Shown: in pieces, positions 487 through 17,885 of the stretch
Layout: every line of letters starts with the position of its first letter
How positions within the stretch are numbered: position 1 is the first letter of the stretch
DNA from: Paracyclopina nana
Lineage: Eukaryota; Arthropoda; Copepoda; Cyclopoida; Cyclopettidae
DNA: 64,000 bases
NCBI GenBank assembly: GCA_019096065.1
Contig: JAGUCH010000001.1
Coordinates: 8,742,001 to 8,806,000, forward strand
Reading direction: 5' to 3'
Program-made: the position numbers and the translations under genes
The notes under the pieces: model-generated
Told to the model about the DNA's origin: nothing
What the model saw: the letters and a program-made list of their open reading frames with translations, nothing else
The model's database searches: none

Positions 487-912
487 TGTGGAGTTACATG
501 GCCAGCAAGCTTTAACATAACTATACTGTAAAATGCCATGCATTTCAACTCAGTAAATGTCCTGAAGCCTAACTAAAATCAACCTACCAATGTAGGCAAA
601 TGGGAATAAATGTTAAGTCATGTTTTTAGGGGGAATAGAGCAAATACTCTATTAGTATTTTATTGAGGGATATTACCTGTATAGTACAGAGGTAGTTGGG
701 TGAATGTACATGTTAGATTTGAACTGGGCCTTATATACAGTTTTGTGAGGGAGGGAATTCTTGGGTGCAACCAAGCAACAAGCAACATATGCTGACATCA
801 AGGTCAAGTATTGGTTAAGCACAAAGAACCAGGAAGAGGAAGTATATTGAAAGATCCAGTAATATCTGGATCTATTTATACAATGCTATTGAACTTCATG
901 TATCACACTTCA
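487..912 (-). repeat. 3' LTR
   Basis: 426 bp, TG (487-488) to CA (911-912), identical by eye to 17460-17885. A minus-strand TATATAAG lies at 730-737 and AATAAA at 659-664. Confidence 0.93.
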
Positions 913-920
913 TTTCCCCC
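913..920 (-). other. Polypurine tract
   Basis: GGGGGAAA on the minus strand directly abuts the start of the 3' LTR, the position where plus-strand DNA synthesis is primed. Confidence 0.75.
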
Positions 921-3054
921 GGTGCAAGAAGAAAAAAATTCTTAAAATGTGACTTTTAAGAATTTTTCACCCCAAAACCACAAAGGAAATTATTATTCCA
1001 CCAAAGTGCTGCATCTTTCCAAAGTAATTACTGCTAAGTCTTATTCATTATGTAGCATGAATCTGGAGTGATCAGACCCAGCAAAATAGTTTTAAGCCAT
1101 AATGGCGACTTATGTTTTTGGAGGCCGTGAGCGAATCGCGTTAGGCTAACTTTAATCCTAGTTAGTTTTTTTTTTCAAGATGAGCACTTTGACAAGGATG
1201 ATGCTCATGAAGTTTTAATTTATGTTATGAATGGTGGTTATTTTTGATGGGAACTTCTGATTGGATGTGATTGGATATTACTTGAATTCTCTCCTTTGGT
1301 TGTGCAGATGGTCTAGCTTATTCCAGATGGATTAGTTCGTAGACAATTCTGACGTCATCAGCCTTTTTTTCTAGGATGATTTCAATTTCCGGGCCTTCAG
1401 ACATGAGTGATGGTAAACTTTTCTGATGAGGCTTGGAGTCGCAGGACGCACGGTGTTGGAGGATGGAGGCCAGGTGTAGGTCATTATTGGAATTGTTGTT
1501 CCTGTCGCTATATTTGCAGTCATCCTTGTTGTGCTTTGGGGTAGCCATTTTGCTGTACTGATGTTGGGGTGCAAAAATCGATTAGGTATTTATGGGCTAG
1601 TCTCCAAGGCTAGATATGAGGGTGTGTGGGACCTATGGTTGATGATCAAGGACTTATATTTCTGCAATTATAGCTTGGAAACACAAGGTGGATTAAACAT
1701 AGGGGCATTTCCTATCCAGTTTGGAAATGAGCCCTGGGATGATATCAAGAGGGAAACAAAAATGTTGGTTTTGTAATATGAAAGGTTATGATTTTATTTA
1801 GAATAATATGATGACTTTTGTTACTTAAGAATCTCGTAGCATTTTCCTAGGTTGAAACCGAGCCATAATTTTTTGGGCCAAATTAACCTTAGAATTCTTA
1901 ACTATACCAAGAAGAAGACCAAATTTGACGAGGAAAAAGGGCATAAAATGTCTATTATTAATATAGCAAATAAATTTTGTGCAACTATCCATACTAATTT
2001 TTAAAGCAACTTAAAAGTATTTTTGTGTCAAAAAGTTCGAGTCACCTTTTTGATCTGTTTGTTTTGGTTTGCCAAAAGCGACTGGAATTTCTTCAAGGTA
2101 AGTTCAAAACAAAATTAATAATTCGAAATTCTGGATTAGTTTGGCCAACAAGGTCCAAACAGATGCAAGGAAATCATGCATGGGTCTTTGCTGCATGGAA
2201 AAAACGCCATTTTAAGCCAAAAGATCAAAATCGGAAATCGCTTAACGATTAGCGTCATTTTTGAGCTTTTGAGGGAAGCTGAAAAAGAGTCGGCGTCATT
2301 TATTTTCGCTTGTATCTCCGTTGTTTTTGGGCCTAGAGCAAAACCAATTACAGATTTGGAAACGGCAGATCGAGCTCTACAAAAGTTATTTTATGAATCC
2401 TTCCCGTAAACTTGCAATTTCGGCCGCTAATTGACCTTAGAAAACGGGAAGTCATGTCCTATAGGGAACAAAAGACAAGCATAATGCAATAGATGGTGCT
2501 GAATCTTTGGCTGTCTGGCGTGCATGCGTTAACGCGACGCAATTGCCGAAAAAAAATAGCGCATTTGCAAAAACGTAAACAAAGCTGGTTTTGCTAATTT
2601 AGTTAAACAAGTGGCAAAGAAAGTGCTTAGATAGTGCTTGTAACGCTTAGAATTAAACAAGGAACAGAATGGTACAGATTTGAGAAAATTTCATGAAAGT
2701 CAGGGAATTCTGGATCATGAGACATATCAAATCCAGGCTTGAGCATGATGGATCGAAAATGAGAAAAATGCCTTACATTACCTTACTCAATTCTCTTACA
2801 GCTCCAAACTAGCATATTCAACTTGAGAGGATAAAATAAAAATATCCAAGTTTGGATATACCTTCCCCCCCTACGCTAGCGCCATCAAATTGTGTAGTGG
2901 CAAAACGCCTGAACTAAATCTTTTAGCCTAGGCTATAAGAGTTATTTGATTAATGTTTCCCAGGGACATTTTCAAATCAGATCATTAATTTAGAAATATC
3001 CTTTACAGGTTAAATCTACTGTTCCCAACATGAAGTGGTCAATATTATTACATG
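913..3054. other. Mostly non-coding 2.1 kb inside the element, next to the 3' LTR
   Basis: No convincing complete gene. On the plus strand, after an acceptor-like GTGTAG at 1477-1482, an open frame reads a hydrophobic run of about 20 residues (VIIGIVVPVAIFAVILVVLW, 1483-1542) that continues to a stop at 1776. It could be the membrane exon of a third antisense gene, but I could not find an upstream exon in phase. The region 1880-2560 has no retroviral coding and may be a nested, decayed element. Confidence 0.35.
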
Positions 3055-3745
3055 ATGGGGGCTGTCCATGTATTGATATTTATCTCCCTTTGCTTTGGAA
3101 ACATGGAACTGAGTACGAGTGCACCTGGGTAAGTGAACTTACGACTTAGTTTTTAAGGCTTAGAATGAATTTAAGTCTATTCTTCCAGATTTGAAATCAG
3201 GAAGCCTGCAAAGACTTCCATTTTGAAACCACTAACTGAGAATGACTTGCCTTTCAACAAGCCATATGGAAACCCAAAGGTGGCAAAGCCTGCCACGCCC
3301 ACACCTGCTGCCACGCCCACCAATGCTGCCACGCCCACCAATGCACCTGATAGGCAGGGATCAACTGGTGCCACTGGGCCCAAGCAGAATGCCCAGGACT
3401 CCTTGGCAGAAGATGAGGCCTCCTTCTTTTACTACATAGGTGCTAAGTTTTAAGCCTTAAATCCTGCAAAGCTTAAGTCCTTAACTATGACTTAATTTCA
3501 GGCTTCCTCTATGGCCTTAAAGTTGCCCAAGTACTGATAGACTGGGCCATATATGGATTGATTTTCTTGCTACAATTCATATGCAGCAAGGCAAAGAGTA
3601 AGTCCCTTATTACTTAAGTCTTTTAAGGCTTAAAACTTTTAAGTCCATTTTAGGACCAGTTGTGCAGAAAGGCTGCTACTATCTGGCAGTGCTATTGCGC
3701 ACTCAACTAGGGCCAGGAGCAGTGGAGGTCCATTTGAACCCCTAA
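3055..3745 (+). CDS. Antisense spliced gene 2 in the element: secreted-signal, Pro/Thr-rich, single-pass membrane protein (170 aa, four exons)
   Basis: Exons 3055-3128, 3189-3439, 3502-3597 and 3654-3745, with introns of 60, 62 and 56 bp. All are GT-AG and keep one frame (phases 2, 1, 1), ending at TAA 3743-3745. Exon 1 is a signal peptide (MGAVHVLIFISLCFGN). Exon 2 is an ectodomain with a mucin-like ATPTPAATPTNAATPTNAP repeat. Exon 3 is a membrane span (about ALIDWAIYGLIFLLQFIC type residues after GFLYGLK), followed by a short basic tail in exons 3-4. A different-frame ATG at 3030 precedes the start. The host-like intron structure, opposite to the retroviral genes, is the notable feature. 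No family recognised. Fused phases over four exons make coincidence unlikely. Confidence 0.72.
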
Positions 3746-3766
3746 GTCAAAGGAGACTTAATATAT

Positions 3767-3830
3767 GACTTAATCGCTCTGTGACTTAATCGCTCTGTGA
3801 CTTAATCGCTCTGTGACTTAATCGCTCTGT
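3767..3830 (+). repeat. Four copies of a 16-bp tandem repeat (GACTTAATCGCTCTGT)
   Basis: Four perfect head-to-tail copies start 21 bp after the stop codon of antisense gene 2. The GACTTAA core also recurs in the introns of that gene. Confidence 0.9.
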
Positions 3831-4284
3831 GACTTAACTTTTTATGTCCTAATGTTAGAATTGAAGCAAGTAATGAAGCAGCACCCTTCATGTTGAAATT
3901 GTGTGATTGTCTATCTTTTTAAGTCATACATGGAATGGGTAAGTACACCTTCACCTTAAGTTTCGAGCTTAGAACTTGTAAGTACTTTATGTGTTACTAG
4001 CTAATGAGCAGCTTTGGACTTATTAAGATTTGATCCATGCTATCTTAAAACTTCCTTAGCTTGAGCCTAAATAGATTATTATATCGACAAAGATTTTGGG
4101 GCTAATTTTGATTACCTTTTACAGATTGAAATCTTTGTACAGCAACTTTATACTATGAATTCCATCTTGTATCTCCCAAGCAGGTTAGGGACTTAAGAGA
4201 TTGAAAGTTGAAGCAGTTACTTAGACTTAGGACTCTTATTCGTAAGGAAATAAGCTTTCCTATGGGATTAAATTAAAGGGGGAC
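3831..4284. other. Non-coding stretch between antisense gene 2 and the envelope-like ORF
   Basis: AT-rich with scattered CTTAAG/GACTTAA words. It contains a strong donor-like GGGTAAGT at 3938-3945 on the plus strand, but no ORF that I can join to it. Confidence 0.5.
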
Positions 4285-6225
4285 TTAGGCAACTTCGATG
4301 CCAATGGCTCGATTAAGAAGCATAACTGCCTGAACTAAGTCTGGTTGAGGGATAGGACGCAAGGGCACAACCTGCAATTGATTGGCAGGTGCTTCCCCCA
4401 ACAAGGGAGGCATTTCAATACCTTCCTCATTATTTCCATTTTCAGGTCTGTCACAACAGCATCTACAATGCCCTAAAAATCGCAAGTAACAAACCATTGC
4501 CAAGATTATGACGACAAGAGTCACCGTTGCCACGCTACTTAAAACCACGGTGATATTCGAGGCTTTAACCCATATGAGATCCGGGTTGGGAGTGGGGATT
4601 TTCTCACCCATTGAGGAATCAAGGACTTGAGGATCGGATAGGCTGGGTGGTAAGAGAACCGAATCATCCACCTTTAGTGAACAACCAGAGGTGATCTTTG
4701 TAATGCCTTTCCTGAATAGTCTGGTTCCTTCTGAATTTTTGTTGCAGATGACCAATCCTGTGATGTCTTGTGGAGTGGCCAGGATTCCCATGCTGGATGA
4801 GTTTGCTGCATCACTTGAGCATGCTGTTCGATAAGCTGTTGGAACCCATGATTGTGAGGTCTGGCAAGAAGTTAGTGGCCCTCCTAGGTCGATCTGTAGG
4901 CCACACTCTCTTTCTTGTGAGCTGGCATGGAATGCCTGGAGCTCGCAAAAAGAACTATTGCACCGGTCAAAGACTGGTTTGGATGCTGAGACAAATGGGG
5001 CCAATCCATTTCCTTTCATGAAGTACGATGGTGATATTATTCTCCCCATGGTGTTCAGTGGGAGAATCTTGTAAATGTCAGCCACCTCAGTTGGATCATG
5101 GTAAGAAAATGAAGCTTTTACCCTTATGACTGCATCGTCAGTCCTAGGAGTCTTCCCTGTCACCCTGAGGGTGACTGGTGATAGGATTTTACCCTCTGGG
5201 TTGAGCCCAGCCATTCTCAAGAAGTCCGCTGCCTTGTCATCTTGGATTACCTGCCTGAAGTTACCCTCAGGTGTAAGGAAGAACCCTATGTCATCCTTAA
5301 GCTTTTTCAGCTTTAAGATGTTTTCAGGTTGCTCATACGTTTCAGGATTACCAAGCTCGCGAAGATCATCGCTGATTTCCACTATGCGGTTTGATAATGG
5401 CCATTGGTACGGAGTGCCAAGAAAGTTTCGCTGCTCAGTCCCTTCTTCAACAAGGTTGGGAACAGTCCTGATGACCGATTCGAGCACTGGTATCTTTGAG
5501 AGGAACCCATCCTTAAAGCCCTTCAGAAAAGAGTGCAAGCCTTCATTCAACCTTGCGCCTGTTAACCTCCGCTGGCATAGGACAGTGACAGGAGCCGTGC
5601 CTGACGGGGAATGGTTGACTGCGAGATCAGCTGCCTTAAAAACCGGCAAGTTATCAGTGTAGTGTTTCATGATTTCAGGTGTGCGCTCCTCAGGCCTAAG
5701 CTCCGAGAAGTACCTGTTGTTCCATAGGTACTTTCCAGCCCTAGTGATAGTCATTTCGATTGGTATTTCAGGAATGCCAAATGACTTCATGATCTTGGCT
5801 AAGGTGGTGAAATCCTGGGGCGTTGGTGGCTGAACCAAAGAGTCTGGATAGCAAGCTTCAGGAGCCGAGGCAATGGTTTTATCCTTTACAGGATAAATTT
5901 CCATGTTGCCTATCCGTGATTTGGCTGGGATGAAATCATCTGGAATCTCTTGCCTGATCATCAATTGTGCTTGCGACAATTCCTGGTTCAAGCCTTGGAA
6001 AGAGGCTACTAGCTTGGTCATGTCAACATCCAGAGTTCTTTCAACATTGGTCTTAAGTGGAACCCGTTGGTGAGGTTTTAATATAAGTTGGTCTAGGCAT
6101 TTTGTTCTCATAGGTTCGGCAATGGAGGATTGAGGTGAAAGGATATGGGAAAGGATCAGTAAGGGTAGCCAAGATTTACTCACAGAAGCCTTGGTCAGGG
6201 TGGTCAGGGATCGAGTCGTCACCAT
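4285..6225 (-). CDS. env: Envelope-like type I membrane glycoprotein (about 646 aa)
   Basis: Sits in the env position between pol and the 3' LTR, in sense orientation. The frame opens at 6303, but the Met at 6225 is preferred because it starts a signal-peptide-like N-terminus (hydrophobic SWLPLLILSHIL, then small residues). The ectodomain carries paired cysteines (for example CNSSFC, TSCQ, CSSDA, VICN, SGC) and N-glycosylation sequons, including NSS twice and NIT just before the membrane. A membrane span of about 22 residues lies near residues 584-605 of the longer frame, followed by a cysteine cluster (CRCCC, a likely palmitoylation patch) and a tail of about 65 residues. I see no classic furin site, and no sequence similarity to a named Env is claimed. 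Expression would need a spliced subgenomic RNA, because it is out of frame with and far from gag. The frame is intact. Confidence 0.62.
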   Translation of the reverse strand: MVTTRSLTTLTKASVSKSWLPLLILSHILSPQSSIAEPMRTKCLDQLILKPHQRVPLKTNVERTLDVDMTKLVASFQGLNQELSQAQLMIRQEIPDDFIPAKSRIGNMEIYPVKDKTIASAPEACYPDSLVQPPTPQDFTTLAKIMKSFGIPEIPIEMTITRAGKYLWNNRYFSELRPEERTPEIMKHYTDNLPVFKAADLAVNHSPSGTAPVTVLCQRRLTGARLNEGLHSFLKGFKDGFLSKIPVLESVIRTVPNLVEEGTEQRNFLGTPYQWPLSNRIVEISDDLRELGNPETYEQPENILKLKKLKDDIGFFLTPEGNFRQVIQDDKAADFLRMAGLNPEGKILSPVTLRVTGKTPRTDDAVIRVKASFSYHDPTEVADIYKILPLNTMGRIISPSYFMKGNGLAPFVSASKPVFDRCNSSFCELQAFHASSQERECGLQIDLGGPLTSCQTSQSWVPTAYRTACSSDAANSSSMGILATPQDITGLVICNKNSEGTRLFRKGITKITSGCSLKVDDSVLLPPSLSDPQVLDSSMGEKIPTPNPDLIWVKASNITVVLSSVATVTLVVIILAMVCYLRFLGHCRCCCDRPENGNNEEGIEMPPLLGEAPANQLQVVPLRPIPQPDLVQAVMLLNRAIGIEVA

Positions 6226-6823
6226 CAAAATAATGTGCAAAAAACTTTTTGCAAAATTGCAGGGCATTGAAGGTAATAATATGAAGTAGATGCAACCTGA
6301 CATTTCTATTGTAGTGAATCAGGCGACCACTTTTCAAACTATTTTTCGAGTAGATGCTGGAGTAAGCAGGGAAAGCCTTCTTACCAAAAAGTCCTAAGAA
6401 TGGATCGTAATAGCTAACTTTTCTTGCATTCAAAAATAGTTGAAATGATTTTAACAGACCCAACTGCAAAGACCAAGTTTTCTTATTGTCCCTTACCAAT
6501 GGGAGAATTATGAAAAGCCTTGAGGGGTGTATGGATTCCAAAAGGCAATCTATTAGATATTGGTAGTCAAAGTAAAAGGTACTGTACTGGTTAATATTGT
6601 ACCCGTTTGGGAGGAGAAAAAGAGCAAAATATTTGTTAGTAGAAGGGTTAACTGCCAAAATTCTGGCAAGGGTTTCTTTTCCTACCTTCGCGCCTTTCTT
6701 TGAAATGTTGATAAGGTCAACTTGCCGATCGAAGTAGTCAGGTCTCCTGTATTCCTTTTCAATTTCAATTAGATTTGAGCCTCCAACAATGATTATTTGG
6801 GGTTTCTCATAAAACTCAGCCAT
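6176..6823 (-). CDS. SGNH-hydrolase-like ORF (215 aa) between pol and env
   Basis: The ATG at 6823-6821 starts MAEFYEKPQIIIVGGSNL. Four blocks occur in the order and spacing of the SGNH/GDSL hydrolase fold: a Ser in VGGSNL (about residue 16), a Gly in ISKKGAKV (about 45), an Asn in PNGYN (about 76) and a His in LIHYN (about 172). The Asp usually three residues before the His is an Arg. Activity is therefore doubtful, or uses a Ser-His dyad. No signal peptide. The 3' end overlaps the env start in another frame. SGNH domains occur in some transposon-encoded proteins and, as esterases, in some viral glycoproteins (established knowledge); any role here is inference. Confidence 0.4.
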   Translation of the reverse strand: MAEFYEKPQIIIVGGSNLIEIEKEYRRPDYFDRQVDLINISKKGAKVGKETLARILAVNPSTNKYFALFLLPNGYNINQYSTFYFDYQYLIDCLLESIHPSRLFIILPLVRDNKKTWSLQLGLLKSFQLFLNARKVSYYDPFLGLFGKKAFPAYSSIYSKNSLKSGRLIHYNRNVRLHLLHIITFNALQFCKKFFAHYFDGDDSIPDHPDQGFCE

Positions 6824-6988
6824 GTCATCTGGAAGTTAATAGGATGTTTTGGGAGAATTAGTACGATATTGGGCTTAGAGCAATTTGCTTGGATTTTGGC
6901 AGTTAAATTGCTTTATGAGGCTGTTTTTGAGAAGCTCTCCAGTCTTGTTTGAATTTTTCCAGAGAGAAGAAGCAGGAAGAGAAAAGCA
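6824..6988. other. Short divergent spacer between SGNH-like ORF and antisense gene 1
   Basis: 165 bp separating the start codons of a minus-strand and a plus-strand gene. It could hold a promoter for antisense gene 1. No TATA box is evident. A TTTTTCCAG acceptor-like site at about 6953-6961 leaves room for an upstream exon. Confidence 0.35.
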
Positions 6989-7725
6989 ATGTCATTCAAG
7001 AGGAGATTTGGATCCTCTTTCATGATGGAGGTCTTGACAACTACCACTGAAATTCCAGTTCAGCCTGAGGGTATCATCCTTGAGGAGGCAACAGAGGCCT
7101 TTAGGGATGTTGATCCTGCTGCAACTTCTTCAGTGTGGCCAACAATGGAGAGTGTACTTCAGTCTCCATTTGGGGCAACTCCTTTGCCAATGGAGGCCAT
7201 TGAGGCCACAATTTTGCCAATTGGGACCAATGAGGCCACTACTCTGCCAACCATGGAGAAGTTGACTGTGCCTACCATGGAGGAGTTGACCACCAAATAT
7301 GTGGGTACCACTACTCAAAAAATCTTTGGGATTTCTGAGGATGATGCTGGTGAAGTTTCCCAAATCATGGATACTATTGGAGAGGTTGCTGGGGACCTTG
7401 ACCCTTTTGAGGCCAAGCTGATCCCTAAGCTGGATCCTTCTTCATCAGTGATTGAGGTAATTTGTCAACATTAATGAAAATTCAATTAAGCTTTAAAGAT
7501 CATTTTTAGTTCTCAATTGAATGGTGGATGATGGTCATTTCAATGCTGGCTTTGCTCCTCATCGCAGTGTCATGTGTGACCATTGCTTTTGCTGCTATCT
7601 GCCATCCAAGGAGGAGGAGAGATGAGGGAATAAGGGCTGAGGAGAGGAAACCTGAGGCAAACACTGAAGGACTTCTGAACCCAACCATCTATTTGTCTGA
7701 CCCCATCTATGATGTAGCACTATGA
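6989..7725 (+). CDS. Antisense spliced gene 1 in the element: Thr-rich single-pass membrane protein (227 aa)
   Basis: Encoded on the strand opposite to gag/pol/env. Exon 1 is 6989-7456 and exon 2 is 7510-7725, joined across a 53-bp GT-AG intron (GTAATTT...CATTTTTAG) in phase 0. The first exon encodes an acidic, Thr/Pro/Glu-rich region with repeated short units of the type LPTMEKL / VPTMEEL. The second begins FSIEWWMM and continues into a hydrophobic segment (about 20 residues), then a basic stop-transfer RRRR and a short cytoplasmic-type tail ending YDVAL. Charge bias predicts N-terminus outside and C-terminus inside. No signal peptide is evident at the ATG, so an upstream exon or type III insertion is possible. 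The gene converges on the end of pol (72 bp away). No homologue recognised. Splice and reading-frame consistency make the gene convincing; its function is unknown. Confidence 0.72.
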
Positions 7726-7796
7726 TCATTGTAATGCCTATGCTTTTACTGCAAAATGCATCATGATCCAGCTACCATTTCGTTATTTTGTGTAAT

Positions 7797-10700
7797 TTAT
7801 GTTGACCAGTCTCCATATCTGTCAGGAGGCTTTGAATCTCTCTTAGGTCTGGATGGCTTGAGAGGTTCTTTAATGTCCATACCCGTTTTTACATTTTTTG
7901 ACTTCTTTTTCACTTGTTTGCTATCAGGTTCTAAAGCTTGAGTTGGGCTACTCTTGCTAGGTGTCTTTGCAAATGTAGGCTTAGCAGAAGGACTCAACTT
8001 TAGACCTTGAAATTGGGATAGATCTAGCCCTAGTGATGAATCAAGCAATGGGGATTTACGAGGAGTTATAGAATCAGATTCTAATTGTAATCCTTGTAAT
8101 TTGGACAGGCTAAATTCAGAATCAGCATGTTTTGGAGAAGCTGAATCTGCAGCACTTTGGAATGACTCATTTGGTGAAGATGGTGGTGATGGACTCACAG
8201 AAGGAGGTGAAGGACTTTTTAATCTGTACAATCCTTTTTCAAAAGGCTTGGTGATATAGGAATCGTCACCACCTCTTTGACCAACAGGTGTATAGAAAAT
8301 TTCCTTAGTTGGAGTTGAAGCCAACTTTGGCTTTCCAGGAGTTGTTGGAGGGATCTGAGAAGCTAGTTTTCTGTATGAAACAGGGGAATCAATGGAGTGC
8401 CTTCTCTGTCCAAATACCTGTTTTGGTGGAGGGGGTAGGACTTTTCCTCCATACTTTTCTCCACTAATGAAAGCTTGAGTTCTATCCACCATACTGGCCC
8501 CAAACTTTGAAAGTTTGTCGAACAGGGATTGTTGCTTATGAAAGGCCTTTTTCTCCTTGAATACTATTTGGGAAATTGCTTGCCGTTGTTTTGGAATAGC
8601 ACCAAGTGATGCAAGTGGATGAATTGATCTCCCTATTTTTGAAGCCAAGTCTAGCAAAGGTGTTTCAGGTTTCTTAGGTGGATCAACCTTTTGAGTTACA
8701 CCCTCAGCTTTTGGTATCAAATGGATGGAGTTGACATCATCTGAACTATTGTCTGATATAGTGGGAGCATTAGAAGATGATTCTGAATGATGTAATATCA
8801 GAGCAGGAGCTGAAGCTTTCGATTTAGGAGCTAGTCTATTTCGAAGGTTGTAAATGTTCTTTTCAAAAGGCTTATCAGCAACCAAACTAGGAGTTTTCCC
8901 ATGCTTGGAATTTAGCAATTCCTGCTTTGATCTGCCATGACCCATAAGGATTTTATAGTCATCTGGCAGGTTATTTATCAGTAAGTCCTGCTTATATCTT
9001 TTTACATCAGTCAAAGAGATCCAAAAGTTGTCCTTTTTGTTGGAGACATTTGACACAAGTGCTTTTGCTTTGCCAATTTTTTGTATAGTATAAATTGCAC
9101 GTTTGTAATTAGGAGTATGTTTAATTCTGGGATGACTTTTGATGAAAACAAGGTCCCCAGCTTTAAGCGGAGCAGAGAGGGTTAATGCACTAATTTTAAG
9201 CTTGTGCTTTGTGGTTTCTCTCTCTTCATATTCCTTAATAATTTCATTATACTTTTCCCTGTAAGCAGCCTGAGAAAGATCATCCATTTCATTAATCCAA
9301 GAGCTAAGAATGCTATGCTGAGGTCTTTTCCCAAAAAATAATGCATGAGGAGTTACCAACTCATTACTATTGTTTTCAGTTAGCCTAAGAAGTGGCCTAT
9401 TGTTCAATTGGTTTAATGATAAGTAGAGTACCTCAAATAAGTTTCTCCTTCTAAATGTTTCTTTGTTCAAGTGAAGAATTCTTTGGATGCTTTTGAAGGC
9501 CCTTTCAATTTTTGAATTTGATGTACTATGGTATGGGCTTGAGTATACAATATTACTTACTCCATAATTTGTTAAAAATTGCTTTGTAGCCTTAGCAGCA
9601 AATTCTGGGCCATTGTCAAATAAAATTGATTGAGGTGTCCCAACTAAAGAAAATAACTTCTTCAGGTTCAAAATTACCTGGTCTGATGTTTTATCTTTGA
9701 GTGGAAACATGAAAAGGTATGATGAATAACTATCTTGAACTCCCAAGCAGCAGTTATAGATTGTTGAATTCATCATCCCTTGTGGGAACACCACCAAATC
9801 CATGTAAAAGATTTCACCAGGGGAACTAGCCCTGGGAAGCCTCCCTGGTTTCACAAAGGTTTCCTTATTTACTTCATATAGAAGGCAAGCTTTACAGTTA
9901 TTGCAGATTATTTTTGCATAAGTTGTAACAGAGGCTTGGCTACAAAAATTAATTGAGAAAATTTTCCTCAGCAGATTCTGCCCACTGTGTCCAGTAGAAA
10001 GATGGATGTAACAAAGGATTTCTAAGATCGCACTTTCTGGAATAACTATTCGAAGGTTACCAGGCTCAAATGGCTTAGATTTTGACTTCCTTGCTAGCAA
10101 AAGAGCAGAATCACATACCCTATATCGTTTTAAAAGCGACTTGGAGATTTTGTCAATGCTCCTAATTTGAAAAGTATTGATGATTTTAGCACAAAAATCA
10201 TCCTTTTGTTGCAGACTAATCAAGTAAGGAATGTCAAGGCTTTTTATCGACCCTGGAGGAGATAGCTTTACCGCATTTATGGCTGGCATGACTGGTAAAG
10301 TGCTAGAAGCTGGAGTTACAAAGGGGATGGAAAAATCATCATTGTTTGTTAACTGCTCTACTCTTTTATGGAGAGTTGACGATTCATCGCTGCCATTTGG
10401 TAGATGAATGCTGCCCCAATAGTCATCTATTGCATCATCTAAACCTTTTAATCTTTTTGTTCTAATCTTAGTGCTCAATTTTGGATCATTGTTAATTGTG
10501 CTTCTCACATGATCTGCTAATTCTTGAATTGTGAACTCAGAATTGAATTTCTCAAAGTTTGCAGGTATATTGTTCATTTCCAAATATTGCTTCATTTCGT
10601 CTTTAGACAGAAACGGCAAACCACTTCTTTTCAAGCCATGATTAGCTAACCTACTTAAGCAATCTGCCATGACTATATTTTTTGAAGCCGTGTGTCTCAT

Positions 10701-13700
10701 TTGCCATATAAAGGGTAAAGAATACAGCCTATGTGACAGCCTGGTTATATCAGGATCCTCACAATCATATGAACTGCTAACCATGCATATTGCTGCACTT
10801 AGATCAGTAATAATAACTGTTTTGATGCTGTTATGAAGGAAGTATTTAAAAGCCTTTACTGACATGTATATGCCAAGTAGTTCCTTGAAAACTGATGATT
10901 TGTGAGCGATTACTATTTGGGGAAACCGTTTTGAGAAGAACCTGATGGGCATTCTCTCATGGGTGTCTGGATTTACTTGGAAGAGTACGCTTCCACATGC
11001 AAAGCAGCTACTATCTGATTCTAACATAATAGGTTTGTTGGGGTCCATAATGTAAGTAGTCTGCGCTTGATCGAGCAAGACCATAATATTATTGAATGCT
11101 TTGATTTGCACATCGTTCAGGGAAAAGTCCTTCCTATTTGTAGATTTTAGCAAGTCAACAAGTGGACCTATCCTTGCATATAACCCAGGGATATTGCTCG
11201 AGATAAAGTTGAGACATCCCAGAAGTGTCATCAATGCTTTCTTTGAATTTGGTATCTCAAATTTGCGGAAATTGACTAACCTTTTCTCAGGGATTTCGAT
11301 TTTTGTCCCATGATCTGATGGAGTAAGCTCCCAACCTAGTATTTCAGTTTTTGGCGAGAACAATTCTAATTTTGGCAAAGATACCAATGCATTTAGTTTT
11401 TGCAGCCTATCGAAAACTTGCTCAAGAATGTCTAAAGCTTCTTCCTTTGTAGGAGCACTCCAACAAATATCATCAAGAAATACTGAGACATTTAGCCCAG
11501 CACATGCTTTAGATATTCGGCTTGAAAATTCGCCAACTGCAATGCTACTTCCATCTGGAACACTATGAAAGGCAAATACTTGAAATGGGAAAAGGTTGCT
11601 GTTACTTGGAGCAAACGCAAAGTAATGCTGGGCTGCAAGAGTTATAGGTAATGTCCTATAGGCAGACTTGAGGTCCAGCTTTATCAAGTATTTCCCATGG
11701 GCCAATTTAGAAAGTGACTCATCAACATTAGTAATGAATGAGTCAAGATGTGATTTCTTTATGTACCTATTACAATGCCTATAATCAATCACTATTCTAA
11801 ATAAATTTCCAGATCCTTGCTCTTTGGGATCTGATATCCTGTTTTTAAACCCAGGATCTGTCTTAGCATTGCTATTGTGGTTTACAATAAAGGCTCGAGA
11901 TATGTTAGTCAGATAAGGGGATGCATGGACATCGATTGGCACAATCAGGTCATTATCAAGCAATGATATTATCTTTTCATCTAGTATTCTATTTGAAAGA
12001 GCACTTGAAGAGAATGCTGGAGCATAGTAAGGTTCTTTCATTGTATGGAAAACATCCATAGGCTCTGTGTTCAAATATCTCCAAGCATTTGGCTGAGCAG
12101 TTAATAAATCATTATACTTATCAAAAAGTTTGCATATCCTTTCCCTATGGTCAACTGGCAGATTCTCTTCAGGGTAATTATCACGCCAGGGCGTGAACTT
12201 GTACCTAGAAGTTATCAGCGCCTCAGTGTCAATTTGGGTTGGAAATTCAATAAGATCCTTTTGAACACTTTTCAGGGAAAGCTTTTCCCAATCATCCTGC
12301 TCAATGCTATTGTTATTTGCTACCAAAGAGGTTGACATGAAAAACATGTTTGTTAATACACTAGCGCCTTGTTGCAATGTAACTGATCTCTTTGGCATGT
12401 TATGCCTAAGAAGATTTATTTTCAGACCAGTTTCCTTTTTCTCTTTAGACATATCGCCATCAAAGATAACATAATCTTTCGCTACTTTACAAAGCTCTCC
12501 GTGTTGAATCTTGCGACATGCTGTGCAGTTGCAAGTAGGTATGTAAAATGCAAGATTCTTTAGTTGGGGCTTTAAAGTCTTAATTTCTAATCCAGGCCTT
12601 TGTGTCCAACCATGAAAGTTGACAACTGTTCTAGCAGCATCCTGAGCATGCTTTCCTTTGAAATCGGATGTATCAATTGATAGAACCAATTGCTGGTGTG
12701 GTCTATGAATAGCCAACTGATACAAAACCTTGTGGATTAAAGAACGAAGAGTCACATTGTATCTGTGATAAAGTCGGCCCATGTGTACAATGACCATTAG
12801 TTTGCCTTGATTCTGAAAAATCATGGCTGAGCTGTCGTCCATCATATAGTACCTAGGTGCTTTCCCTTTAACACTTCTCATGGTAAAATCTGGTAACTGA
12901 GTCCCCCCTGTGGAGACATGAATTTTAGTAGTATCAGTTTCCATGATGAGTTCAGTTAGATCATCTGTAGCAATTGAAGCACACTTTGTGCAGTCTCCAG
13001 TTTTGAAGTAAATTATGTCCACATTTTCCCATATTTGGAAAACAAGGGCAATAATCTTTATCATGCTCAAATCGAGGACCTCATTGTGGGGTATGACAAA
13101 AGATATCTTTTTCCGTACAGCTCCCTGTGGAAGTTTACCAAGGTATGTTTTCAAATAGTCCTCGGAAATCTTGAACAAGTTTGCCTTACTTTCATAAAAG
13201 AAAAGGTCATTGTTTATCAATACGACAGGAGATTTTTCTGGAGACCAGTCCTCGAAATTTTTAGCTCCTGATTCAGCAAAGTGGGTGGTGCCATATGAAT
13301 CGCAGAAAAAAGCCTTTGTGATTGAAGCATGCTCCTTTCTAACATGGCACATGCATGTGAGGTGAGAAAATGGAACTTGATGTATGGCTTTCATGCTATC
13401 AAGATTAGGAGCTAAGGTATGTTTTTCTGCAAACTTGTCAAAGTCGCCTACAAATTGGACCTCTGCTGGCTCTGAATTTTCTGGCAAGCAGATTGGTTCT
13501 CGAGATTTGTTGTGAAGATTGACCAGTACATTATTATTTCTACTGACCACTGTAACCGTGCTCATAACCAGGTCCTCCCCATAAGAAGAAGGCAAGATTA
13601 GGCAATCTAATCCTTTTAAATTATGTGGGACTGATGGAAGGCCGCTAATCTTCATAGGGACAGTTCTGCTTTCAGATGGGAGCAACATTAAATTTTGCTC

Positions 13701-15194
13701 CAATCTAGCTGGCAAAACTTCATTTTTTGAAAGGTAGGCCTTGACTTGACATGTAGTCCCTTGGGATCGGAACCCAATGAAGACTTCATTTGGTGACTGG
13801 TCCAATACCATTCTTTTGGAAAGCAGCACGTTCTGGCCCAGGATCATAGGTACATTTTGCTTAGTCTCAGTAACTAGCATTGGGACATTACAAATTGGTA
13901 CCTTATTTCCAAGTTGCAAATCAAGCAACACAACCTTCATAGGTGGAGTTGGACTGTCAGAGCCAAATACATTGCATCTAAAAGTCTTATCAAGAGTTGG
14001 AAGCCTATGACCTAATCTTCTTTCAATGTCATCCACCAGTGATTTTTCAATGCTTGAAGAGTTAGCCCCTAAATCAATGAGGCCACAAGTCATTAAATCA
14101 CTGGGAAGTCTCACATCTATAGTGATTCTGTCAGCTGTCAAAGGGATTGGGAGTTCATTAGGTGCTGTCACTTTCCCTGAAGAGACTTTTAGTGATCGTC
14201 GCTTTCCTCTGATCTCAGTCGTTACTGTCCGATCAGGAATCTTCAAATTGCTGTATTTGAGTTTTACAGCATTTTTGTCCAACATATCTACCTTATTTAT
14301 GGTAGGTAGATGGTGGATGAACCTCTTCAGCAATAGATTTTTCCCATCAATAGTAAGCCTCTTCCTTTTAGGCTTTCTCTTGATTTTTATTTTCCAAACA
14401 CGAAATCCTGCAATTGTCATCAAGACAAGTGCCAAGTACTTCCAAGGATCCTGTCCATATCCAATGGACAGAGCCCCTATCAAGACAAAAATAATGGAAA
14501 GTAGAAATCCCCTTTCGGTAAACAAATTACACGCAAATTTCTCAATTTCCCTACTGAACAATGCTCCCATTGTTACAAAATTGGAGCTTTCTTTCCAACT
14601 GTTATCAGAGCTGCTAGCATCAGTCTCATACTGATCATGGGTGACATTATGTCTGCACAAGATGTCTTCAACACCTTTCCTAAGACCATCAGGGTCCACA
14701 TACTCATTTGCTGCTGGCAAAGTAGTATTCATCTCATTACCCTTGGGACCGCCAAGAGAAAAATTTGCTGCTGGCAAATTTCGGGCCTCCTTAGATCCAT
14801 CTGGACTTCTAAGACAGGCTTCTAATTGGAGCTGATCTATAGCAAGATCCTTATTCACATTTTGCTCAGGTCTCATGGGACCTCTAGGCAAATTATCTTC
14901 AATCGACTGACTTTCTTCATAGTCAGATTCAGTCTGGCTTTCAGCCTCAAGAAATTCTTTATACAAATCATGCAAGCTACTGGATGTATCGAATACAGGG
15001 TCACACAGGGATTCACTGTCATCCTCAACTAGGGTTAGAACTTTTATGTCAATGGAAGAGACATCATTAAATTCTTCTACTCCTGTTACACGAGGATCAG
15101 AGCTTCTATTTAATACCTTTTGAGGCAGGTATCCTACCTGAGCAGAATCTGGGCACAGATTCAGCAAGTCCTTACCCTGGTGACCACTATACCG
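7797..15194 (-). CDS. pol: Pol polyprotein (about 2,465 aa): membrane segment, protease, reverse transcriptase, RNase H, integrase and long C-terminal tail
   Basis: In frame with gag and open directly after its TGA. Residues below count from the TTG codon at 15167. An acidic linker with two LPAAN motifs (about 131 and 150) is followed by two hydrophobic segments (about 221-255) and a basic stretch. The retropepsin core is LIDLGANSS (Asp365; Leu where Thr/Ser is usual), with flap-side ILGQN near 442. An unexplained region spans about 460-1000 and includes a CNCTAC cluster near 880. RT begins FRIVIDYRHCNRY (1123), with LDLKSAYR (1164) and active site FLDD (1230). RNase H acidic residues are near 1384, 1429, 1455 and 1502. 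Integrase has HLSTGH and CNNC zinc ligands (1722-1758), then the catalytic triad YMD (1790), DNGPEF (1851) and IE (1888). A Ser/Pro-rich tail of about 500 residues follows. No frameshift is seen in over 7 kb, so it appears functional. Confidence 0.93.
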   Translation of the reverse strand, partial: RYSGHQGKDLLNLCPDSAQVGYLPQKVLNRSSDPRVTGVEEFNDVSSIDIKVLTLVEDDSESLCDPVFDTSSSLHDLYKEFLEAESQTESDYEESQSIEDNLPRGPMRPEQNVNKDLAIDQLQLEACLRSPDGSKEARNLPAANFSLGGPKGNEMNTTLPAANEYVDPDGLRKGVEDILCRHNVTHDQYETDASSSDNSWKESSNFVTMGALFSREIEKFACNLFTERGFLLSIIFVLIGALSIGYGQDPWKYLALVLMTIAGFRVWKIKIKRKPKRKRLTIDGKNLLLKRFIHHLPTINKVDMLDKNAVKLKYSNLKIPDRTVTTEIRGKRRSLKVSSGKVTAPNELPIPLTADRITIDVRLPSDLMTCGLIDLGANSSSIEKSLVDDIERRLGHRLPTLDKTFRCNVFGSDSPTPPMKVVLLDLQLGNKVPICNVPMLVTETKQNVPMILGQNVLLSKRMVLDQSPNEVFIGFRSQGTTCQVKAYLSKNEVLPARLEQNLMLLPSESRTVPMKISGLPSVPHNLKGLDCLILPSSYGEDLVMSTVTVVSRNNNVLVNLHNKSREPICLPENSEPAEVQFVGDFDKFAEKHTLAPNLDSMKAIHQVPFSHLTCMCHVRKEHASITKAFFCDSYGTTHFAESGAKNFEDWSPEKSPVVLINNDLFFYESKANLFKISEDYLKTYLGKLPQGAVRKKISFVIPHNEVLDLSMIKIIALVFQIWENVDIIYFKTGDCTKCASIATDDLTELIMETDTTKIHVSTGGTQLPDFTMRSVKGKAPRYYMMDDSSAMIFQNQGKLMVIVHMGRLYHRYNVTLRSLIHKVLYQLAIHRPHQQLVLSIDTSDFKGKHAQDAARTVVNFHGWTQRPGLEIKTLKPQLKNLAFYIPTCNCTACRKIQHGELCKVAKDYVIFDGDMSKEKKETGLKINLLRHNMPKRSVTLQQGASVLTNMFFMSTSLVANNNSIEQDDWEKLSLKSVQKDLIEFPTQIDTEALITSRYKFTPWRDNYPEENLPVDHRERICKLFDKYNDLLTAQPNAWRYLNTEPMDVFHTMKEPYYAPAFSSSALSNRILDEKIISLLDNDLIVPIDVHASPYLTNISRAFIVNHNSNAKTDPGFKNRISDPKEQGSGNLFRIVIDYRHCNRYIKKSHLDSFITNVDESLSKLAHGKYLIKLDLKSAYRTLPITLAAQHYFAFAPSNSNLFPFQVFAFHSVPDGSSIAVGEFSSRISKACAGLNVSVFLDDICWSAPTKEEALDILEQVFDRLQKLNALVSLPKLELFSPKTEILGWELTPSDHGTKIEIPEKRLVNFRKFEIPNSKKALMTLLGCLNFISSNIPGLYARIGPLVDLLKSTNRKDFSLNDVQIKAFNNIMVLLDQAQTTYIMDPNKPIMLESDSSCFACGSVLFQVNPDTHERMPIRFFSKRFPQIVIAHKSSVFKELLGIYMSVKAFKYFLHNSIKTVIITDLSAAICMVSSSYDCEDPDITRLSHRLYSLPFIWQMRHTASKNIVMADCLSRLANHGLKRSGLPFLSKDEMKQYLEMNNIPANFEKFNSEFTIQELADHVRSTINNDPKLSTKIRTKRLKGLDDAIDDYWGSIHLPNGSDESSTLHKRVEQLTNNDDFSIPFVTPASSTLPVMPAINAVKLSPPGSIKSLDIPYLISLQQKDDFCAKIINTFQIRSIDKISKSLLKRYRVCDSALLLARKSKSKPFEPGNLRIVIPESAILEILCYIHLSTGHSGQNLLRKIFSINFCSQASVTTYAKIICNNCKACLLYEVNKETFVKPGRLPRASSPGEIFYMDLVVFPQGMMNSTIYNCCLGVQDSYSSYLFMFPLKDKTSDQVILNLKKLFSLVGTPQSILFDNGPEFAAKATKQFLTNYGVSNIVYSSPYHSTSNSKIERAFKSIQRILHLNKETFRRRNLFEVLYLSLNQLNNRPLLRLTENNSNELVTPHALFFGKRPQHSILSSWINEMDDLSQAAYREKYNEIIKEYEERETTKHKLKISALTLSAPLKAGDLVFIKSHPRIKHTPNYKRAIYTIQKIGKAKALVSNVSNKKDNFWISLTDVKRYKQDLLINNLPDDYKILMGHGRSKQELLNSKHGKTPSLVADKPFEKNIYNLRNRLAPKSKASAPALILHHSESSSNAPTISDNSSDDVNSIHLIPKAEGVTQKVDPPKKPETPLLDLASKIGRSIHPLASLGAIPKQRQAISQIVFKEKKAFHKQQSLFDKLSKFGASMVDRTQAFISGEKYGGKVLPPPPKQVFGQRRHSIDSPVSYRKLASQIPPTTPGKPKLASTPTKEIFYTPVGQRGGDDSYITKPFEKGLYRLKSPSPPSVSPSPPSSPNESFQSAADSASPKHADSEFSLSKLQGLQLESDSITPRKSPLLDSSLGLDLSQFQGLKLSPSAKPTFAKTPSKSSPTQALEPDSKQVKKKSKNVKTGMDIKEPLKPSRPKRDSKPPDRYGDWST

Positions 15195-15197
15195 TCA
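15145..15197 (-). promoter_or_regulatory. Probable gag-pol readthrough signal: TGA-CGG plus downstream hairpin
   Basis: Gag stop TGA (15197-15195) is followed by CGG, a context known from several viruses to allow ribosomal readthrough. The frame then stays open for 2,465 codons. A perfect 7-bp stem with a 4-nt loop (GAATCTG/CAGATTC, 15162-15145) begins about 32 nt downstream. Gag and pol are in the same frame, which argues against frameshifting. Confidence 0.65.
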
Positions 15198-16763
15198 ATC
15201 TTGAACATTTGATCCCTTGGGATCCTGCTCAATTGCCATCATATTTGTAGGCCTTACATTTTGGCATACCTCCTGATGGTATCCATTACATTTTGAGCAT
15301 GCATTTGCAGCCATGTTCTTATTAGAGTAGACATTGCACTCTCTAATTACATGATTTGGAGAAGTGCATAGAAAGCATCGACCTCTTAGCTCCTTTACGT
15401 AGTGAAATTTAGGAGCATTCCCCTGGGAAGGCTGCCTATTTTGGCCCATTGAGCGAGCTTGATAGGCATGAATATCCACAGATTCCTCTGATATTTCAGA
15501 GATTTCTGCAGACATTATCATGGGCTTTTGGAGAACAACTGGTGGACAATTCCCAAGGGCCTTTGATGCAATTGCAACCAACATTGGAAAGCTTTGAACT
15601 CCACTTGCACCTGAGCTCTTTGCGGAGGATACAGCTTTCTCATAATTTTGCTGGATTGAAGCGAAGAAAGCAGGCCAAAAAGTCTTGATCAAAGTAAAAA
15701 CATGAGTCCTAGCCTCAATTTGCACCATGATTGATTTCTCACTTGATTCCATATGGGAGCATTTCTCCCTGACCAAGTTGTACAATTTGAGACATACAGA
15801 GCCAAAGTTTTTAGGAGGAGTAGAAAGCAGTTCCCTAATCTCCTTTTCACAAATGGACGAATCATTGGAGCTTTTGTTTATGATCTGGAGGCTGTGCCAA
15901 TATGAAGAAAATGGCAAGTTATCAGCCTCAGAAGAGATGGTGAAGGCCAAATAATCATTAGCCATTACGTGGCTGGCTAGATTATAGGCAGCAGTCGTAT
16001 CATAACGCAAGTGAATGGCTGATCTCAGCACCTTGAGGTAATGTGAAAGTTTCCTGTGAGCCTTTCCACTTCCAAATGCAATGTTATTGCAGTTTACAAA
16101 GACAGCTTTCAAGACATTTACCTCAATAGTGTTACTCTTGCCAAGAATTGGACAAGGTATGTATTCACTATTATTGGTATCCTCGAAGATGGTGGATTTT
16201 GAGGACTCCAAGTTTGCTTTCTTTACCATTTGGACATTATGATCAATGATCGCGCTTGATACATTGATCGAATCCAATTCCTCCTCTATGATTTCAATCT
16301 TTGCTTTCACTAAAGGCGTATTCTCCATCTGATCAAACTTTCTCAACAACTTTGCCAACAGTTGCTGCTTAGTCATCAACTTTGCAAGGTTAGATGAAAA
16401 TTTGTGTGATCCAAATTCCTTGCCTAGCATTTCAGAAATGGATGCATTAGGTCCATCTAAAACTAGCTTGAAATAGGATATCTTAGCCACATTCTCATCT
16501 TCCCTTGCTTTGTATTCAAGAAGTTCAGGCTTCTTTCTTGAATTCATAACAGAAAGAGAGCTTGCTATGGCCACTGCCAATGATCTCTCAGTCTCACCTA
16601 ATCCTAAATCCTGAGTAATAGTATTAATCCTATCTACCATATTCCTCTCTTCAGAAACAGGAGCCAATTCAAGATTATCCTGTTCCTCGATTCCAATGAA
16701 GAAATTAGCAGAGGTGGCATTCAGCCCACCTTCTGCTACAAATCTACTTTGATTTGGTTCCAT
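15195..16763 (-). CDS. gag: Gag (522 aa) with two zinc knuckles
   Basis: Capsid/nucleocapsid precursor of the retroelement. The ATG at 16763-16761 (MEPNQSRF) is the first ATG of the frame; a GTG five codons upstream also keeps the frame open. The middle of the protein is helical and Lys/Glu/Leu-rich without a motif I can name. Near the C-terminus is a C-x2-C-x4-H-x4-C knuckle (CFLCTSPNHVIREC, about residues 463-476) and a second, shorter CSKCNGYHQEVC (about 489-500). The frame ends with TGA at 15197-15195, immediately followed by CGG, and the same frame stays open into pol. A Gag-Pol fusion by stop readthrough is therefore likely. Confidence 0.85.
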   Translation of the reverse strand: MEPNQSRFVAEGGLNATSANFFIGIEEQDNLELAPVSEERNMVDRINTITQDLGLGETERSLAVAIASSLSVMNSRKKPELLEYKAREDENVAKISYFKLVLDGPNASISEMLGKEFGSHKFSSNLAKLMTKQQLLAKLLRKFDQMENTPLVKAKIEIIEEELDSINVSSAIIDHNVQMVKKANLESSKSTIFEDTNNSEYIPCPILGKSNTIEVNVLKAVFVNCNNIAFGSGKAHRKLSHYLKVLRSAIHLRYDTTAAYNLASHVMANDYLAFTISSEADNLPFSSYWHSLQIINKSSNDSSICEKEIRELLSTPPKNFGSVCLKLYNLVREKCSHMESSEKSIMVQIEARTHVFTLIKTFWPAFFASIQQNYEKAVSSAKSSGASGVQSFPMLVAIASKALGNCPPVVLQKPMIMSAEISEISEESVDIHAYQARSMGQNRQPSQGNAPKFHYVKELRGRCFLCTSPNHVIRECNVYSNKNMAANACSKCNGYHQEVCQNVRPTNMMAIEQDPKGSNVQD

Positions 16764-17439
16764 AATGGACTTCCTCACAACAAATGTGCTATGGTTCTAC
16801 CCAAAAAGGAATCCTTACAGCTGGAATTTGCTAATCACAGTACAATGGGAACCAAATCAAGGAATTTTGCACAAAGTAACGCTATATAGACTTCAAGGTC
16901 ATAAGCAACAGTTATACCTTCTCTATATATACACAACCACAACACTAGCTTTTCAAGGACAAACCTGAACAAGTAGTATGCAACATAAATTGGACAACTC
17001 AGAAATGCTGATCCAACAAAATATCTCCCCTTAAGAAGTCAAAAAATCTAAAAAGGGAATAAACTGTGTCTTACTTTGAATTGATGGTATATGGGTGATA
17101 GGAAAAATGGGCAGGATGGCAGATGCAAATGCAACTTGGGCAATTTAATCAGGCAGACTAAATTGAGAGGGCAGCAGCAGAAATTGGTGTCAAATCTGTA
17201 ATCAGAATATTATTAATCAGATGCATGGTACTATTGACTTCCCTTTTCATTGAATATACTCAAAACAAATCTGAGCAATTCTAGCCTCTGATTCTAGTCA
17301 GATAAATGGTACTATTGTCTTCCCATTAAATTGGATGTGCTCAGAACAAATCTGTGCAATAATCCATGTATCTGAAATATTCAAAATTATTCTAATTTCT
17401 GAACATGACTTATCCTTATCCTAAAAAGATTTTAGATAG
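16764..17439 (-). other. Untranslated leader of the retroelement
   Basis: About 680 nt between the PBS and the gag ATG. No long ORF; it would hold packaging and splice-donor signals. A GTGAGG donor-like string lies just before the gag ATG, but no use can be shown. Confidence 0.5.
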
Positions 17440-17457
17440 GCCCCACGTTGGGCGCCA
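17440..17457 (-). other. Primer-binding site for tRNA-Lys(1,2)
   Basis: The minus strand reads TGGCGCCCAACGTGGGGC, starting 2 nt after the end of the 5' LTR. All 18 bases match the tRNA-Lys(1,2) 3' end complement used as primer site by several retroviruses (established knowledge). Confidence 0.93.
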
Positions 17458-17631
17458 ATTGTGGAGTTACATGGCCAGCAAGCTTTAACATAACTATACT
17501 GTAAAATGCCATGCATTTCAACTCAGTAAATGTCCTGAAGCCTAACTAAAATCAACCTACCAATGTAGGCAAATGGGAATAAATGTTAAGTCATGTTTTT
17601 AGGGGGAATAGAGCAAATACTCTATTAGTAT

Positions 17632-17637
17632 TTTATT
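17632..17637 (-). terminator. LTR polyadenylation signal AATAAA
   Basis: AATAAA on the minus strand in the 5' LTR. The functional copy in the 3' LTR is at 659-664. Confidence 0.45.
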
Positions 17638-17702
17638 GAGGGATATTACCTGTATAGTACAGAGGTAGTTGGGTGAATGTACATGTTAGATTTGAACTGG
17701 GC

Positions 17703-17710
17703 CTTATATA
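17703..17710 (-). promoter_or_regulatory. Putative LTR TATA box (TATATAAG)
   Basis: TATATAAG on the minus strand lies about 175 bp into the 5' LTR and about 70 nt upstream of an AATAAA. This spacing is expected for a U3 promoter and R-region polyadenylation signal. Confidence 0.5.
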
Positions 17711-17885
17711 CAGTTTTGTGAGGGAGGGAATTCTTGGGTGCAACCAAGCAACAAGCAACATATGCTGACATCAAGGTCAAGTATTGGTTAAGCACAAAGA
17801 ACCAGGAAGAGGAAGTATATTGAAAGATCCAGTAATATCTGGATCTATTTATACAATGCTATTGAACTTCATGTATCACACTTCA

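Follow-up and report, generated by a model that had tools for sequence, protein, structure and literature searches.

We report what is very probably a genuine spliced coding gene for a membrane protein, located antisense to gag, pol and env in an LTR retroelement of Paracyclopina nana. The gene (gene 1) is encoded by the plus strand, in the interval between the 3′ LTR and env, and its four exons join to 516 nt, encoding 171 aa and a stop. Its predicted product is best read as a type I membrane protein of small size whose stalk is mucin-like. We consider gene 1 to be coding because the four-exon frame is open in two of the three copies of the element, the substitutions between copies are of the coding type, and a similar gene is present in a related element family, L069. 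Positions refer throughout to the window, i.e. the whole 64,000-nucleotide stretch of DNA that we analysed.

Structure of gene 1

A reading of the sequence alone (the sequence-only reading) had proposed four exons with short GT-AG introns in this region, and we located an open frame interrupted by introns of 60, 62 and 56 nt where it had placed them, all on the plus strand. Exon 1 (3052..3128) encodes a signal-peptide-like N-terminus and is followed by intron 1 (3129..3188; GTAAGT..CCAG). Exon 2 (3189..3439) encodes a Pro/Thr-rich stalk with 18-nt repeats of variable length, at residues about 55-80. Intron 2 (3440..3501) has a weak donor, GTGCTA, and its GT and AG are kept in 3/3 copies. Exon 3 (3502..3597) encodes the predicted membrane span, and intron 3 (3598..3653; GTAAGT..TTAG) separates it from exon 4 (3654..3745), which encodes a short tail and the stop. 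The proposed allocation of N-terminus, stalk, span and tail to exons 1 to 4 is borne out by sequence and hydropathy, and the antisense orientation agrees with the position of the element's ORFs on the minus strand. The proposed start at 3055 also fits, but ATG 3052 is possible as well; we take ATG 3055 to have the better start-codon context.

In the hydropathy profile, the top-scoring 19-residue window starts at residue 120, within exon 3; among N-terminal 11-mers, the one starting at residue 5 scores highest. Judged by this profile, residues 1-26 look like a signal peptide and exon 3 is predicted to contain a membrane span; about 90 residues precede the span, and SKAKR follows it. The strand opposite gene 1 has no notable sense ORF, the best minus-strand chain being 29 aa. 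We detected no homologues of gene 1 (E up to 1e-3), nor of a second candidate described below, gene 2 (E up to 0.01), among ~5.8 billion proteins, and a Pfam scan of gene 1 gave no bZIP or TRP28 match. The gene 1 sequence was found solely in the three copies of the element, and we rejected the idea that it is carried by a nested transposon.

The carrier element and its copies

A single LTR retroelement of 17.4 kb occupies positions 487-17885 of the window, in minus-strand orientation. A search of the 92-Mb genome (10 contigs; GCA_019096065.1) found three copies: the window copy, C4 and C2. In the window copy, the 3′ LTR (487..912, minus; the left end in window orientation) and the 5′ LTR (17460..17885, minus) are 426 bp long and identical (0/426 differences). 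The 5′ LTR adjoins an 18-nt primer-binding site at 17440-17457, which we presume to correspond to tRNA-Lys; a 15-nt pattern from this site occurs 82 times genome-wide (reversed control, 0).

The gag-like ORF (15195..16778, minus; 527 aa) is named for its position and open frame only, and had no match in a Pfam scan. The pol ORF (7797..15167, minus; 2456 aa) encodes protease-like, RT, RNase H and integrase regions, with Pfam matches above the cut-off to RT_RNaseH, RT_RNaseH_2 and rve, and below it to RVT_1 (split over two pieces) and Asp_protease_2. Between pol and env, overlapping the start of the env-like ORF, there is an open sense frame of 215 aa (6176..6823, minus), whose pN/pS is 0.30 in the comparison with C4 and 0.33 in that with C2. 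Its start, IIIVGGSN, is presumably reminiscent of SGNH esterases; a Pfam scan gave no match, and the structure model was poor (pLDDT 39). The env-like ORF (4285..6303, minus; 672 aa, with a C-terminal membrane span) is called env from position and topology; it had no match in a Pfam scan, a single-sequence structure model was too poor to be of use (pLDDT 36), and pN/pS is 0.31 against C4 and 0.27 against C2 (codons 221-672 only). The element has two LTRs, a gag-like ORF, and a pol with RT, RNase H and integrase, and, as judged by domain order and pol matches rather than by a tree, it is a Ty3 (Metaviridae) kind of LTR retroelement. A search for relatives of pol returned 14 matches, of which the three that are named are elements from the spider Araneus and are 29-30% identical.

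The C4 copy has both LTRs, identical to each other. Its pol has the same amino acid as the window copy at 698/699 examined codons (pN/pS 0.07 on 5 changes in the pol part compared), and the first codons of its env (about 1 to 30) are in a different frame. The C2 copy is degraded: its env match is in four pieces, three with a stop, and there was no close RT match on C2 among the matches listed. Next to the C2 copy, L033:3714-3841 and 5175-5666 comprise an LTR fragment and another stretch of the 3′ region, 80% identical, that perhaps stems from an older insertion.

Two further observations concern non-coding sequence. At about 1460-1640, between the 3′ LTR and gene 1, likeness between the window and C2 copies seems higher than in the surroundings; a plus-strand ORF there is not kept, and the block is possibly regulatory. 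Outside the element, at 20333-21450, there are tandem 54- and 63-nt repeats in an inverted arrangement. An Rfam search of the window returned nothing.

Substitutions in gene 1 are of the coding type

In C4, gene 1 retains 6/6 splice dinucleotides and its frame. One additional in-frame 18-nt stalk repeat is the sole exon indel relative to the window copy, and intron 3 has a 2-nt indel. In C2, 5/6 splice dinucleotides are retained (the intron-1 donor is changed from GT to AT), exon 2 has a 2-nt frameshift, and the stop is lost. The sequence-only reading had named stop codons and broken splice sites in most other copies as evidence that would speak against a gene; the C4 gene is intact, and the broken C2 gene lies in a degraded element.

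That reading had also suggested dN/dS across copies as a check. Between the window copy and C2, dS is 0.31, dN is 0.07 and dN/dS is 0.23 (152 codons, excluding gapped codons and the Pro/Thr repeat at 3296-3348), and in 500 shuffles preserving the base changes the number of non-synonymous changes was never as low. This is mainly one comparison, with the degraded copy; dN/dS between the window copy and C4 is 0.21, on 5 substitutions only. Exons 1, 2 and 4 each have a low pN/pS in the predicted plus-strand frame (0.31, 0.22 outside the repeat, and 0.16, respectively), with no stops, while exon 3 has a pN/pS of 0.91 that is uninformative alone, since it comes from 4 substitutions, 3 of them non-synonymous. 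The predicted frame ranks second lowest of 162 frame/strand combinations, and the lowest one contains a stop. Changed synonymous sites amount to ~25% in gene 1 as against ~8% in env, and the gene 1 introns differ at only 17/175 sites (~10%), below the synonymous-site divergence; hence, recombination is likely.

Other antisense candidates in the element

A second candidate, gene 2, is situated between pol and the 215-aa ORF. Its exon a (6989..7456, plus) encodes a Thr-rich ectodomain and is separated by a 53-nt intron (7457-7509, plus) from exon b (7510..7725, plus), which encodes a membrane span, RRRR and a tail. Spliced, gene 2 would encode 227 aa with a strong predicted span; no signal-like start was found in the modelled part, where N-terminal hydropathy is low. 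Chains of at least 227 aa arose in 0/300 shuffles (longest 208), and a 173-codon open frame alone in 13/1000. Scanning of exon a, the only gene 2 exon scanned, gave no TRP28 match in Pfam. Comparisons of gene 2 with C4 and with C2 (33 codons left) gave no sign of purifying selection: each yielded 4 non-synonymous and 0 synonymous changes. Since all changes are non-synonymous, 4/4 in both comparisons, we retain gene 2 only as a weaker candidate. We rejected a third candidate, the hydrophobic plus-strand ORF at 1480-1773, which has 1-nt indels in C4 and C2; its hydrophobicity could be the complement of a hydrophilic ORF at 1321-1581 on the opposite strand.

A predicted spliced antisense gene in a related element family

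Among 401 candidates we scored at least 64 pol matches, 2 belonging to this family and 62 having 24-29% identity in the part searched. We inspected 3 kb around and after the pol end in each of three related families (L068, L069 and L070), whose pol is 22-26% identical, and found a spliced antisense membrane-protein gene in one of the three. The L069 gene (L069:263-1140, plus; pol is on the minus strand, ending at 2475) has three exons, which encode 252 aa and are separated by introns of 59 and 60 nt that have strong splice sites. Its predicted membrane span is complete only after splicing, across an exon junction, and is followed by HRRR. Five N-glycosylation sequons, counted with what we take to be the standard motif, precede the span. 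The modelled part has no recognisable signal peptide, and an upstream exon may be missing from the model. Chains of at least 252 aa were obtained in 0/300 shuffles, the longest being 250 aa.

The L069 protein matches at least seven places in the genome, and in 7/7 a pol match lies 4.1-13.0 kb away on the opposite strand. The exon-2 and exon-3 matches are free of stops in all seven. Exon-1 matches run beyond the exon end and contain 1-2 stops each; in L069, one of the two copies that were read, these stops lie within the intron. Between the L069 and L071 copies, the only exon indel is of 18 nt and the intron indel is of 1 nt; pN/pS is 0.31, which is not significant alone (0.089).

The two other families gave no such gene in the regions inspected: antisense chains reach at most 88 aa in the 2.4 kb after pol in L068, and at most 134 aa in L070, where sense accessory ORFs are found instead. 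The two L070 ORFs (L070:465-1094 and 1240-1971, plus) are similar to each other, lie in sense orientation after pol and match Pfam DUF5662 above the cut-off (E 1.9e-6 and 5.5e-9), an unexpected accessory gene for a retroelement.

Sequence composition, chance and other explanations

The predicted introns differ from the exons in composition. CTTAA/TTAAG words occur 13 times in 180 nt counted as introns and once in 519 nt counted as exons (a few spacer letters are included in these lengths), suggesting that the predicted exon/intron boundaries separate two kinds of sequence as well. Elsewhere, the counts of these words are 13 in the 539 nt that follow the gene 1 stop (3746-4284), 9 in 913-3051, 18 over the 13,175 nt that stretch from env to the 5′ LTR, and 75 in 42 kb of host DNA. 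The interiors of introns 1 and 3 are alike (0/1000 shuffles were as similar), and the other two pairs among the three introns have no significant likeness (0.244 and 0.101). Membership of a genome-wide introner family is unsupported: the donor together with the shared intron motif occurs four times in the genome, three of these in gene 1 copies, and the motif alone is found at more places.

The introns and the 3′ flank have a word composition in common, unlike that of the remaining element; this would fit a host gene that had been captured antisense with its introns and was now a passenger in one element family, and the introns themselves fit an insertion of genomic DNA. We nevertheless consider such a capture unlikely, since no related sequence turned up at other sites of this genome or among the proteins searched, and a second element family has a different gene in the same layout.

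A stretch with few stops and common GT and AG dinucleotides could also give rise to a gene-like chain that has no product. We searched both strands for chains containing at most three short introns. The best chain in the gene 1 region is 178 aa long and is not exactly the four-exon model; chains of at least 172 aa occurred in 0/20 and 3/300 shuffles (longest 192 aa). When strong donors were required, the chain in the gene 1 region fell to 113 aa, because the intron-2 donor is poor. Host-part tiles reached 172 aa in 6/29 cases, all six overlapping ORFs, and in two of these the long chain lies opposite a 922-aa host ORF, indicating that the shadow of a sense gene can also yield such a chain. Chain length alone is thus weaker evidence and is not decisive for gene 1. 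A chance frame would also agree with the lack of homologues and with the weak intron-2 donor. It would not account for the coding-type substitution pattern in the spliced frame or for the recurrence of such a gene, with strong splice sites, in the L069 family, and we regard it as very improbable. We give equally little credence to the idea that the antisense RNA itself carries the function, either as a regulator or by giving rise to double-stranded or small RNA directed against the element, with the frame incidental: retroviral antisense RNAs can work without a protein (PMC10186651, in the text available), and the introns and a non-coding block are fairly conserved too, but gene 1 substitutions avoid amino-acid changes, and between C4 and the window copy the one exon indel is of 18 nt while that in intron 3 is of 2 nt.

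Putative expression and function of gene 1

Within 487-4284, the plus strand carries five GTAAGT sites and the minus strand one; for wider donor words the counts are seven and four, respectively. One of the plus-strand donors, AAG|GTAAGT at 2098, could be spliced to an acceptor, TTTACAG, ending at 3008, giving a possible leader intron of gene 1 (2098..3008, plus). The 26-nt donor context has 0 differences in C4 and 1 in C2, and the acceptor is kept in 3/3 copies. A dispersed repeat of ~0.4 kb (2460-2853), with over 25 other occurrences in the genome, is nested in the element. It falls inside the possible leader intron in the window copy and in C4; we did not find it in the C2 copy. Downstream of the coding exons, GTAAGT at 3939 and 3978 (plus) may act as donors of 3′ untranslated introns, and ATTAAA at 4267 and 4272 (plus), at the env stop codon, is a putative polyadenylation signal. 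TATA-like words in the 3′ LTR number one on the plus strand (TATATA at 732) and two on the minus strand. Antisense transcription may start in the 3′ LTR, though we hold this to be somewhat less likely than not. The sequence-only reading had supposed that the gene would need its own promoter; a separate internal promoter is not necessarily required, since a start in the 3′ LTR is possible.

If gene 1 is a coding gene, as we favour, RNA polymerase II would transcribe the antisense strand, starting in the 3′ LTR or at an internal promoter. The short introns would then be removed by the host spliceosome, and the protein would pass through the secretory pathway to the cell surface. Genomic RNA is of the opposite polarity, so the introns would stay unspliced in it and survive each round of retrotransposition; antisense polarity would be a simple route for a retroelement to retain introns. 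From its topology, we guess that the protein most likely serves as an accessory surface protein, acting in attachment, in passage from cell to cell or in hindering a second infection, and we hold any one of these functions to be doubtful.

A broader possibility, for and against which we see the case as evenly balanced, is that a clade of large Ty3-like elements in this animal is ambisense, with gag, pol and sometimes env set against opposite-strand multi-exon genes for surface glycoproteins, which would have arisen more than once and would be transcribed and spliced as separate units, perhaps starting in the 3′ LTR. Such an element could place surface proteins independently of sense transcription.

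Comparison with known systems

Antisense genes in such elements are already known; what appears new here is a multi-exon gene for a membrane protein. The sequence-only reading had described such a gene as, so far as known, unreported, and we likewise found no multi-exon antisense membrane-protein gene in an LTR element among the literature matches listed, subscription papers being mostly outside the scope of that search. The deltaretroviral antisense genes are the nearest in layout. HTLV-1 HBZ is expressed as an antisense RNA from the 3′ LTR that is spliced, with an intron of about 1.4-1.5 kb, according to the accessible parts of PMC1459196 and PMC10186651. Gene 1 is similarly antisense, near the 3′ LTR and predicted to be spliced, with a possible leader intron of 0.9 kb whose donor is conserved. 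HBZ is, however, a nuclear bZIP protein, whereas gene 1 has four coding exons and encodes a predicted membrane protein, and for gene 1 the signs of an LTR start are in the sequence only (the TATA-like site and the donor at 2098).

HIV-1 ASP is sited opposite env, whereas gene 1 has no overlap with env codons. Like the gene 1 product, ASP is an antisense membrane protein in a retrovirus, but it has two predicted spans, where gene 1 has one span, a signal-like N-terminus and three introns (PMC10186651, in the portion available).

In the plant elements Grande, RIRE2 and Retand, the interval from pol to the 3′ LTR likewise contains antisense coding sequence, and an antisense additional ORF is typical of a lineage in Retand, the TRP28 domain being present in the antisense ORFs of 97% of Retand clusters (PMC7264820 and PMC11963269 for the former points, PMC11963269 for the last, each from the accessible text). 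The plant products are described there as nuclear (Grande) or possibly DNA-binding (TRP28) (PMC7264820, PMC11963269). Unlike gene 1, these ORFs are discussed in the accessible text of both papers without the word "intron", and no antisense membrane protein is named in it.

The sORF2/FAST-like proteins of the insect MDG1 group are, like the predicted gene 1 product, short membrane proteins from an arthropod Ty3-like element. In the available part of the survey (PMC11952523), the candidates are all sense-oriented, the sequenced full-length transcripts are without splicing, the ectodomain is about 30 residues long, and there is often a myristoylation motif (MGxxxS/T). By contrast, gene 1 is antisense, predicted to be spliced and signal-like at its N-terminus, has a longer stalk, and has no S/T at the corresponding position of that motif. 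One span followed by a basic patch is common to these proteins and to gene 1 (SKAKR), gene 2 (RRRR) and the L069 gene (HRRR). Antisense homing-endonuclease genes in group I introns resemble gene 1 as antisense genes of a mobile element with a short spliceosomal intron, and they are expressed; the kind of element and the protein are different (PMC9548176, in the text available). Bdelloid LTR elements have extra ORFs, some with membrane spans, none of which is described as antisense in the accessible part of PMC5408684.

Searches for extra genes that translate unspliced ORFs, as in PMC11952523, would miss spliced genes. If genes like gene 1 are common, a second way of reaching or protecting the cell surface would be open to invertebrate LTR elements, and the antisense strand should be treated as possibly coding when elements are annotated.
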